Assembly (NCBI GenBank): GCA_020631605.1
Contig: JAHDGZ010000007.1
Coordinates: forward strand, 1-43,667
DNA from: a bacterium
Lineage (GTDB): Bacteria > Patescibacteriota > Gracilibacteria > Absconditabacterales > Absconditicoccaceae
Length of the DNA stretch: 43,667 nucleotides
Direction of reading: 5' to 3'
The notes under the pieces were generated by a model. That model was not told where the DNA came from and made no database searches. It saw only the letters and a list, made by a program, of their open reading frames with translations. The translations under genes and the position numbers were made by a program. Below, piece after piece: positions 3,575 through 8,759 of this stretch; the stretch's first letter is position 1; each line of letters opens with the position of its first letter.

Positions 3575-6250
3575 TTACTCGTTGGGAGTAGACGATGGAA
3601 TCTGGAGATGTTTCTTGATGTCTTCTCGAACAACTTTCCCCAGTTTGACAGTTGGATTGCCATATGTTTCTTCCATGATTCTTTCTACCTGTTGTCTCAT
3701 AAGTGAATTGGCCTTTTGGTATGTGATATCTTTTTCTACATAGTCTAATGTTCTCATTTCACCAGTAGTAGGTCTGAGCTTCTCCGCATAGAGTTCTCTA
3801 GTGATGTGATCTCTCAGTGCCTCTGCATCTTCCACATATCTGTTTGCAGAAACTACTGTTTGAAGTCATCATTTTTGTAGTCATACATAGACACTATACG
3901 TAATTCAATCAGATCATGTATATACTAGTCATGGGTCTCGCTCTCTTTCTCATGAATCATTGAGTGATCGTAGAGATAGAATTGATTCAGCGTTCTCTGA
4001 TACATTTTCTGTTTGCAAGCCAGCAAGTATAATGTCATCAAATTCTCCGAATCACTGTGGTGATACTTGTCGTAGAGAGTAAATATCTAAGTGACGAGAA
4101 AGTCGACTCTGAGCCTCCTCATGAGAGCTGATCTGTTGAAATTCTCCTATCTCTTCTTTTAGTGAACGATCCTGAGTCAAAGGATTCTGATCCATCTCCA
4201 AAAAATAGTGAAAGATTTTTTTTCTCATGTCAGAGGTAGATTCAATGCTATTACCAAGATCATCTCTAGACAGAAAGTAATCTCCCACAAGTTTCAATTG
4301 TGGTCATATGCTCATATGACTGTCTGCATCAAGGAAATAGATATTGCTCAAAAAGGTATGCAGAATAAGATTAGTTTTTGCATCCGATGGTTCTGCCATA
4401 ATCCTAGATTGAGGTGTAAAGACATCAAAATGATTAGTAAAATCATACTCTCCATTGGCTACAAGCAGTGTTTTGTATATATGCGGCTCCAGCTCAGTTG
4501 CATACTTTATGTTTGTGGTATTTGCTTTAACCTCTTCGTACGAATCATCTCCTGTTGTTTGGTGTATGGTGACGAGACTTTCAGCATTGATATCGCCTCA
4601 GATAAGATTGCTCTCTAACGCTCACCATCCAAAACGATATGACGCTTCTTCAGTGATTTTTGCAAGTGCACCTACGTCCGGAAGCAGCTCTCTGTTGTTT
4701 AATAACACATCAGCAAATTTTGTGTTTTCTTTTGCCAGAAAGTCATAAAACATATCAGCCAAAAAAAGCTGCCTTCATTCTTTATTCATCTGGAGTCCTC
4801 ATTGTCACTGGTACTTGTACATCCCACCTGGATGTGATGAGGAGAGTAGATTTATTTCCTTCATGTTAGTTTTGATATAGTTCATGATGCAGCTCTCTAA
4901 GGTAGAACGATCATCCGTACTCATTGCATCTATTCAATAATTATCTTGTAAATCATCTAGCAAGTCTGCAACAAGTTCCTTTTGTAACCTATGGAAATAT
5001 TCAACTCCCAAGTAGTTATTATCACTTTGGTTAATTACTTTTTCATAGGTCTGAAAGTATGCATCACGTTTGTTTTTCTTGCTGATGGTATTGTAGAGAG
5101 GTGTAATAGCCATAAAGAGTGCCAACAGTACAGCAGCTCATACTCTTTTTTGATGACTCGTCTTCTTAGGTGTATTGTCTAGCATCACACCACTGACCTT
5201 ATTTTGTGATTCTTGGCTAAAGGTAGAATGAAATCATCTTTTACGAAAACCATCTTTGAATGTGTCAGTGCTTCTTCTATGTGAGGTATTGATGATGGTT
5301 TTTTGACCAGGTCTGATCCCAAACGTAGGTGGATCAGTTTCTTCTCCATTCCAGCTATCATTCCACGTAAGAGAGACAACAACAGCTTCTTGTGTATCAG
5401 ATCGTTCCGCTGCGTAGGTTGCATTGTCGACTAACTGATCGGGGATGCCTAATCTTTTCATTCATTGTACGACAAATGCTTTGGAATATGGTCAAGCATA
5501 CATCTGTGCATGTTGCTCTTTTGCCTCTTGATTGTCAGGCACAGGAAAAAAACTCGTAAAAATGTTATCTCATTCACGAAACCAACTGGGACGCGGTAAC
5601 CATCTATCATAGTCGTTATGGATTTTTTCCATCGGAAACATTCCTACGTTTAGTAGGTTGATATATGAAACAGGCTCTGAAATATCAAGAATACGCTTTA
5701 ATGAGTTTCATGTATCGGTAGAGTGAAGATGACGACGCTCTAGTTTATTAAAGTCTTTTTCTTGGACTGTTACACTAAGCATAGGAAACTTCACTGAAAG
5801 ACGATTTTTTGCTTCAAATGCTTGTTCTCCAGCTATATCAATAAGAATAAGTTCCTTTCCCATAAGTTCTTGAGGATCCATTTGAGAAAGAAGAAGCTCA
5901 GTGTCATGTCAATCAGCATCTCACAAGATAACAATCTTCTTGTGCAGTTGAGATCCAATATTTTCCCCATGTTGTTCAATGAAGTCTTTTTGCCACTGTT
6001 CTGCTAGATATTCACCAGAATTCATGAGATCTTGTCGGAGCTTTTTTCATTCTTCACCGATCCACAGAAATCAAGGGTCTACCTCTTTTTGGTTGAAGGT
6101 ATCGGTACTGGCATTATAGTCTCCTAGTAGCTTTGTCAGAAATTCACGTTGGGTGGCAGTATGGTCTAATGAGTTGTTCGAGTTAGAAATATGAGACACA
6201 TCATGGTGCTCTTCTCATCATTTCCCTAGTCCATTTGCTCGCCTTGCCAT
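3575..6250 (-). CDS. EgtD-like methyltransferase domain fused to a membrane segment and unknown C-terminal domain, 891 aa
   Basis: The ATG (6248-6250) overlaps the regulator's TAA by one base (TAATG), so translation is probably coupled; TAA is at 3575-3577. Residues about 60-335 look like a SAM methyltransferase of the Methyltransf_33/EgtD type: a motif I-like loop ILGDADGHDTELLL near 105, an acidic second strand (LILIDIAGEQAF), and a late segment FGIRPGQKTIINTS then STDTFKDGF that parallels the family's 'F..GE.I.tEnS.Ky....f' region. A single hydrophobic helix (GAAVLLALFMAITPLY, about 369-387) follows, then about 500 residues I cannot assign, containing Gly-rich loops (HPGGMYKYQGQGG). The methyltransferase side is probably cytoplasmic and the C-terminal part outside, by inference. 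EgtD trimethylates histidine for ergothioneine; whether this domain does so is unknown. The open frame is certain, the family call moderate. Confidence 0.75.
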
Positions 6251-7124: not shown

Positions 7125-7832
7125 TTAGAAGAATCAATTGAGTAGAGAGTCAAAATTGGTGATTCAGACCGCATGAGAATAGAGTTTGTATCATTCTCCA
7201 TAGTGTGTCCCAATACGATGACCATGAGAGATGTGTCTAGCTTCTACATAATCCAATCATCGACTATTGGTATCAAACTGAGATTTGTAGCAAGTGAACG
7301 CTTTCATTTTTTGTTGAAAGACTTTTTCATCAAGATTGAATATGAAGTCTGGCTCAAACTCTTGTCGGATCATATAGTGCAGCAGTAATCTGGGTTTGTG
7401 TGGTGCTAGTCAATTAATTTCAACTTTTTCAAGACCTGCAACAAAAACAGCATTTTTCACAAGTTGTGCAGTTGCTTCATGGTCTGGATGTCTATCAGAG
7501 GTCCATGGCATCATAACTATTTCTGGTTTATGTTTTCTTATGTAACTAGCTAACTCCTTTCTATTTTCCGCTGAATCTATGATAGCTCAATCTTCCCACT
7601 GGAGATTGATTCTCTGTTGGACGCGGAGGACATCACCAGCGCATTGTGATTCCATTTCTCTGGTGGTGGGGTCGCCATGAGTAGATAACTGAGATGGACT
7701 CAAGTCTATGATAGTGTTAGATTTTCACTCAAGCGCTGATTGAAAAAGTGCGCCACCACAACCAATTTCTACATCATCAGGGTGTGGGCCTATAGCTAGT
7801 ATATAGGTGTTGTAGTCGTGTGTTTGTTTCAT
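7125..7832 (-). CDS. PIG-L family (LmbE-like) N-acetylglucosaminyl deacetylase, 235 aa
   Basis: The ATG is at 7830-7832 and TAA at 7125-7127. The zinc-binding signature is intact: AIGPHPDDVEIGCGG near the N-terminus, PWTSDRHPDHEATAQ in the middle, and a late HISHGHRIGTHYGE histidine cluster. Enzymes of this family remove acetyl groups from N-acetylglucosamine conjugates (BshB and MshB in thiol synthesis, also chitooligosaccharides and lipid precursors). The PHPDDVEIGCGG wording is close to BshB1-type bacterial members, but substrate cannot be settled by sequence reading alone. It lies 107 bases upstream of the TrmB-type regulator and just downstream of a putative cysteine-responsive attenuator, which would fit thiol metabolism. 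Confidence 0.92.
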
Positions 7833-7850
7833 TATGATAATTTTATAGAT

Positions 7851-7989
7851 AAAAAAATATCCACCTGTATCGAGGTGAAGGAGGGTGAGTTGTAGCTGTT
7901 TTTAATCTACCTCAAAGTATCCTTCACAAAGGAAGAACAACAACAAGTAGAACTAAAAGAAAGATACAACATTGTCTAGGTGTAAGTTA
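7851..7989 (-). promoter_or_regulatory. Putative transcription attenuator in the PIG-L leader
   Basis: Read on the minus strand. A promoter-like pair TTGCTC (8024-8019) / TACTAT (8001-7996), spacer 17, would start RNA near 7989. Then come a 21-codon leader peptide with three adjacent Cys codons and a hairpin UUCACCU/AGGUGGA (7879-7873 with 7866-7860) followed by a T7 run (7857-7851): an intrinsic terminator about 20 bases before the PIG-L start. An earlier segment TTGAGGT (7915-7909) can instead pair over 7 bp with ACCTCGA (7876-7870), removing the terminator's 5' arm. That alternative segment overlaps the leader stop codon, the classic attenuator arrangement. A separate outer pairing GAAGGA (7925-7920) / TCCTTC (7882-7877) is also possible. 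It could alternatively be a free-standing small RNA of about 140 nt. Confidence 0.5.
7907..7972 (-). CDS. Candidate leader peptide with Cys-Cys-Cys
   Basis: ATG 7972-7970 to TAG 7909-7907 encodes 21 residues, MLYLSFSSTCCCSSFVKDTLR written as MLYLSFSST-CCC-SSFVKDTLR. The three TGT codons occupy 7945-7937, upstream of the alternative RNA hairpins. No clear Shine-Dalgarno precedes it. It is judged only on arrangement: a ribosome waiting for Cys-tRNA would leave the antiterminator segment free. Confidence 0.4.
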   Translation of the reverse strand: MLYLSFSSTCCCSSFVKDTLR

Positions 7990-8045
7990 AATGGTATAGT
8001 AAAATAACTATATATATCGAGCAAAGAAGATGCAAATTTATTAGA

Positions 8046-8159: not shown

Positions 8160-8759
8160 ATGTTAAGTAAATTATTCGCTAGATTCTACGATTATTGAAT
8201 GAGAAGATCTGAGAAGAAATATTTTTCTCAAAAAAGAAAAAAGATAACAGACCTGAGTGGAAAGATAATGGAATTGGGTTGTGGCACTGGAGTCAATTTT
8301 TTATACTACAGTCCGAAGACACACATACTAGCACTAGAGCCATCTAGCCACATGGCCAAGCGTGCTAGAGCAACGATACGCTCAGATCAAGATATTGTAG
8401 TAGAGGAACTAACATTAGAACAGGCCCAATCACATGGCATTGTAGAAGAGTGAACATACGATGCGGTAGTATGTACACTAGTGATGTGTAGTGTGCCGGA
8501 GTATGAGAAAACACTAGAAAAAATGATGAAAGTACTCCGTAAATGAGGCAAGTTGTTTATAGTCGAGCATATCAAATCTCAAAGTCCAATCATTGCATTC
8601 TTGCAAAACATCTTCACTCCAATCCAACGTGTTATCGCAGATGGATGCCATCTCAATCGCGCTACTGATAGTTTTGTGCATACTTTGTCTTTAAAATGCA
8701 TCGAAGAAGAGTATTTTTGAACATACAAAACATATTACTACTGATTGTTCCAAAAATAG
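8160..8759 (+). CDS. Class I SAM-dependent methyltransferase, 199 aa
   Basis: ATG 8160 to TAG 8757-8759. Motif I is IMELGCGTGVNFLYY (about residues 36-50); the acidic loop after strand 2 is LALEPSSHM; motif IV is YDAVVCTLVMCSVPEYEKTL; motif V is LRKGGKLFIVEHIKS with its first Gly written TGA. The pattern is that of UbiE/METTL7-like small-molecule or lipid methyltransferases, including the C-terminal Cys/His-containing strand region (DGCHLNRATDS) typical of METTL7 relatives. The acceptor is unknown. The next gene follows after 81 bases and may be co-transcribed. Confidence 0.88.

Follow-up and report, generated by a model that had tools for sequence, protein, structure and literature searches.

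Does the minus strand ahead of a PIG-L deacetylase gene carry an attenuator that responds to cysteine, as was predicted from the sequence of a 43,667-nt stretch of DNA (the whole stretch analysed, hereafter the window)? If real, such an element would be evidence that a reduced, recoded CPR lineage controls a gene through coupled transcription and translation according to the supply of an amino acid, and it would link cysteine status with an enzyme of the bacillithiol type. The source genome, 1.1 Mb in 51 contigs and 87% complete, contains genes that are open only if TGA is read as glycine (code 25), the code of SR1 and Gracilibacteria. Genome-wide counts were worked from stretches totalling 919 kb. 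We consider a ribosome-mediated transcription attenuator reading charged tRNA-Cys to be plausible and, by a narrow margin over an ordinary 5' flank, the leading explanation of the locus, with a probability somewhat below one half. The weights given to this reading and to the two rivals discussed below are judgements and were not computed.

Candidate leader peptide and alternative hairpins

On the minus strand, the leader elements are followed by the deacetylase gene (7832-7125), a gene for a TrmB-type regulator (7017-6250) and a gene for an 891-aa protein. The latter gene (window 3575-6250, minus) abuts the end of the regulator gene, and its product had no match in Pfam or NCBIfam. The neighbour on the other side of the leader is a methyltransferase gene (8160-8759), which is divergent, so that a minus-strand terminator at this locus has no upstream gene to end, a point in favour of an attenuator.

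The candidate leader ORF (7907-7972, minus) was read codon by codon as 21 codons plus a stop, MLYLSFSSTCCCSSFVKDTLR, from the ATG at 7972 to the TAG at 7909-7907. Three adjacent cysteine codons, TGT TGT TGT, occupy codons 10-12 (7937-7945), and both the peptide and the cysteine run were found exactly where the original prediction had placed them. The ORF has no TGA and is therefore unaltered by code 25; it also includes a (TTG)n-like stretch. The start context of its ATG is uninformative, with 25% of background ATGs scoring as well. A repeat or mobile element was rejected as an explanation because the leader is single-copy in the genome, and no tRNA was found in it.

Folding of the minus strand yielded a terminator-like hairpin at 7860-7879 with a 6-nt loop and a stem of 7 pairs including one G-U (7879-7873 with 7866-7860; -7.5 kcal/mol). 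A UA spacer separates this stem from a run of seven T residues (7851-7857, minus), located at -25 to -19 relative to the ATG of the deacetylase, which could serve as the U-tail of a terminator, as a T-rich initiation element, or as both. The competing helix that had been proposed, between 7909-7915 and 7876-7870, does form 7 pairs (-5.5 kcal/mol) and overlaps the leader stop codon by one base; it is, however, the weaker of two antiterminators. The stronger one, absent from the original prediction, joins 7920-7927 to 7875-7882 by 8 Watson-Crick pairs, its 3' arm overlapping the 5' arm of the terminator. Together with its inner helices (7914-7911/7889-7886 and 7910-7907/7895-7892) it reaches -14.6 kcal/mol, versus -7.5 kcal/mol for the terminator. 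The minimum-free-energy fold of the whole leader (-30.3 kcal/mol, z -1.94 relative to shuffles) consists of the terminator-like hairpin and a 1:2 hairpin at 7889-7970 (minus), which would leave the terminator free to form in the absence of a stalled ribosome.

Where transcription would begin is a point on which the sequence offers little guidance. A possible promoter, TTTGCA-18-TATAGT, is located at 8007-8036 on the minus strand, with 9 of 12 consensus positions and an RNA start that would be near 8000. A sigma-70 promoter scan gave little enrichment over shuffles, in which such matches were about as frequent, and the motif is thus weak evidence; promoter scanning was rejected as unusable. TATAAA and TAAAAT occur at -15 and -13 of the deacetylase start, and no hexamer peak was seen at this position before the divergent genes of the genome, so that a leaderless start of the deacetylase just 3' of the hairpin is neither supported nor excluded.

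Ribosome position and chance expectation

To follow the two pairings during translation of the leader, we calculated ribosome-masked partition functions codon by codon, using a footprint of -13 to +15 relative to the P site. The terminator probability was 0.97 in the absence of a ribosome and 0.004 with the first cysteine codon in the A site. When the A site held the second or the third cysteine codon it was 0.30 or 0.37, respectively, and these are the only positions at which the 7915-7909/7876-7870 helix became dominant. For codons 13-20 in the P site the probability was 0.92-0.98, and at the stop codon it was 0.76. This is the order of values expected for trp-type attenuation. The value for the first cysteine codon stayed at or below 0.01 for 4 of 5 footprint sizes and rose to 0.27 for the shortest (-10 to +12). 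In silico, the antiterminator and the terminator are thus predicted to be mutually exclusive, with the position of the ribosome setting which of them forms. The switch was also opened by stalls elsewhere, for example with the P site on codons 2-3 and 6-8, and the specificity for cysteine therefore rests on the codon run alone.

Under the attenuator reading, an RNA initiated upstream of 7972 would be presented to a ribosome that translates the 21-codon leader. If Cys-tRNA were short, the ribosome would pause with the first cysteine codon in the A site and cover the 1:2 hairpin on its 5' side; 7927-7920 could then pair with 7882-7875, the hairpin at 7879-7860 would be blocked and the deacetylase gene would be transcribed. 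If Cys-tRNA were ample, the ribosome would reach the UAG and cover 7925-7897, and the hairpin with its seven U residues would end transcription.

How often such an arrangement arises by chance was estimated from shuffles in which the terminator was held fixed and the part upstream of it was shuffled. A leader with a run of three codons for any one residue and an antiterminator was found in 0.135% of 20,000 such shuffles and the same combination with a cysteine run of three in none of the 20,000, while a ribosome-dependent switch was found in 9 of 2892 (0.3%); these and the following chance figures overstate the independence from chance, since the arrangement had been pre-selected by the original prediction from the tail of the distribution. 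Among 370 upstream regions from the 919 kb, the combination of terminator, leader ORF, run of three and antiterminator was observed twice in sense and once in antisense orientation, and not at all in 20 shuffle passes. When 849 upstream regions from five genomes were screened on both strands, a switch at a codon run was seen in the leader of the window alone; one further region switches and has no codon run. A candidate before an mraY-like gene (G000 C40) contains a leader, a run and an antiterminator and was rejected on failing the switch test. The trp-type geometry hence turned out better than had been claimed for it, as a clean switch by ribosome position that is rare both in shuffles and in real regions. 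The same rarity counts against the explanation that the locus is an ordinary 5' flank, in which the hairpin, the ORF and the pairings are a coincidence picked out by the original prediction.

The T-rich start context and local terminators

A Shine-Dalgarno-like motif precedes only 46 of the 622 genes of the source genome. Instead, a T-rich, G-poor stretch is located at about -24 to -17 before the start codons, with T frequencies of 0.47-0.57 and a depletion of G at -21 to -17. It is present before divergent and distant genes as well as before operon-internal genes (<40 nt behind a co-directional neighbour), and three further family genomes show it too. Because the operon-internal genes have it, the stretch is most simply explained as a translation-initiation element, and a U-rich signal for translation initiation is likely in this Shine-Dalgarno-poor genome with TGA as glycine and in the three family genomes. 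The T7 of the window falls squarely on this element, and the deacetylase ATG scores above 97% of the genes for T-rich context.

That the T7 is such an initiation element in an ordinary 5' flank is accordingly a serious possibility, to which we give almost the same weight as to the attenuator. The hairpin fits this explanation. The organism does use intrinsic terminators, which we identified at 41 of 278 convergent 3' ends as compared to 5 in shuffles, with a median of -12.3 kcal/mol and with the T residues mostly placed directly on the stem. On the same scale the hairpin of the window, with its UA spacer, reaches -6.7 kcal/mol and is weaker than 40 of the 41. The hairpin and the T7 of the putative terminator are present as placed by the original prediction, but the stem is weak for this genome and the T7 is unattached to it and can be explained otherwise. 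Searches for homologues of the leader in the source genome and 49 family genomes gave only short, mostly low-complexity matches, and none of six inspected loci had a comparable leader, which is also what an ordinary flank would predict. Against it stands the association of hairpins with T runs. Among 237 divergent genes, hairpins of at least this strength immediately ahead of the start were found for 3 of the 28 genes that have a T run and for 0 of the 209 that lack one; one of these three cases follows a tRNA-like stretch. In these genomes, a hairpin before the common T-rich start element can mimic an intrinsic terminator.

Terminator-like hairpins were also in excess before divergent genes generally (7 versus 1.0 in shuffles). 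This excess, the many leader codons at which a stall opens the switch, and the occurrence of a hairpin and T run before aspS in the same genome are in line with a second rival: a real terminator or structured RNA that answers a signal other than Cys-tRNA, such as a general slowing of ribosomes, a protein or another ligand, or else the end of a small RNA from the divergent region. Taken jointly, these variants appear rather improbable to us. A T-box, a riboswitch or another Rfam leader was rejected, as no Rfam family reached its gathering score and permissive matches were at chance level, and this result speaks against the second rival, even though the end-to-end alignment of one permissive match, RF01859 (Phe_leader), extends from the ATG of the leader as far as the T run (16.2 bits versus a gathering score of 55).

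Other possible leaders were observed as well. The gene that reads as aspS (aspartyl-tRNA synthetase; L134:10910-12691) in the source genome is in a divergent context, and a 10-bp hairpin with a T run, ending 20 nt ahead of its start, may belong to a regulated leader. Homologous ABC transporter genes from two genera (L104:5679-7445 and L211:2000-3778) have leaders of about 250 nt with strong hairpins of -15.3 and -13.8 kcal/mol, respectively, each followed by a T run and situated 23-27 nt ahead of the start; an attenuated leader may be conserved here.

The deacetylase, its relatives and known cysteine leaders

The deacetylase gene (7125-7832, minus) encodes 235 aa in code 25. Its product passes the curated cut-off of TIGR04001 (BshB1) with 211.8 versus 182.5 bits and matches Pfam PIG-L with 79.2 bits. 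Judged from the sequence, a cysteine run before a BshB1-type gene is a functional match, and we counted it in favour of the attenuator. The original prediction had further suggested a role in the synthesis of low-molecular-weight thiols. In the source genome (87% complete) no match to BshC was found and no BshA above the cut-off, the best BshA-like match having 86.6 versus 273.7 bits; the best-matching relative, G011 (97% complete), likewise yielded no BshC and no BshA above the cut-off. A role of the enzyme in making bacillithiol is for this reason unlikely, and its substrates may be other conjugates of GlcNAc or of thiols. The assignment to the BshB1 type holds, while the proposed thiol synthesis is unsupported.

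Two other relatives, G038 and G041, contain bshB1, bshA and bshC, in G041 on a single contig. These recoded relatives apparently carry a complete bacillithiol pathway. Many in-frame TGA codons were observed in the bshB1 and bshA genes at L004:1492-3412 (G041 contig 49), L005 (G038 contig 58), L096 and L097. In the literature searched, bacillithiol in CPR bacteria was not found discussed, save for one paper on mercury genes in which both terms occur.

Conservation of the leader had been put forward as a check. Among the 49 family genomes, a BshB1-like relative (E below 1e-20) was present in only three others, at 36-39% identity, and the search of 353 genomes of the class yielded no deacetylase relatives beyond these. 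The gene is situated within about 70 nt of a co-directional upstream gene in all three, and a cysteine leader was seen before none of them; with identities of 36-39% and none of the three from the same genus, this comparison has little power, and the absence does not amount to a refutation. Contigs of 84,980 species provided distant homologues at no more than 39%, planctomycete and latescibacterial ones among them, which are too remote for a comparison of leaders, and viral contigs contained no relatives of the deacetylase.

The terminator, the conservation, the transcription start and the metabolic logic are thus each a weak point for the attenuator, despite its unusually good geometry. The full picture, a trp-type cysteine attenuator in a Shine-Dalgarno-poor, Gracilibacteria-like bacterium with TGA reassigned to glycine, controlling a BshB1-type deacetylase whose remaining pathway has been lost and using one U-run both as terminator tail and as initiation element, is in our view less likely than not.

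Several known systems resemble the putative attenuator. It has the leader peptide and the alternative 1:2, 2:3 and 3:4 pairings of the trp- and phe-type attenuators of enteric bacteria, with the stop codon in segment 2 or next to it. It differs from RF01859 (Phe_leader) and its kin in that it is no member by sequence or model, has a weak terminator and would read cysteine. In Rhodobacterales, the uORFC-8-2 motif ahead of cysS has a short ORF with tandem cysteine codons (14-15), two stems and a terminal U-run, with 145 conserved examples, and ribosome-mediated transcription attenuation has been proposed for it (PMC8632094). The window shares the short ORF, the tandem cysteine codons, the two stems and the terminal U-run, but represents a single unconserved case with three cysteine codons before a BshB1-type gene, in another phylum with another code. 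In actinobacteria, the cys and cbs operons have leader peptides with cysteine codons and no obvious terminators (PMC1262725), and mycobacteria have leaderless polycysteine sORFs that respond to cysteine and are reported to act at the level of translation (Canestrari 2020, as cited in PMC9031893 and PMC13236596). The window has in common with these a short ORF with a cysteine run upstream of a sulfur- or thiol-type gene and, unlike them, has a terminator-like hairpin. If it works, it would be a further cysteine-leader attenuator, of a kind already known, with a new gene and in a new phylum.
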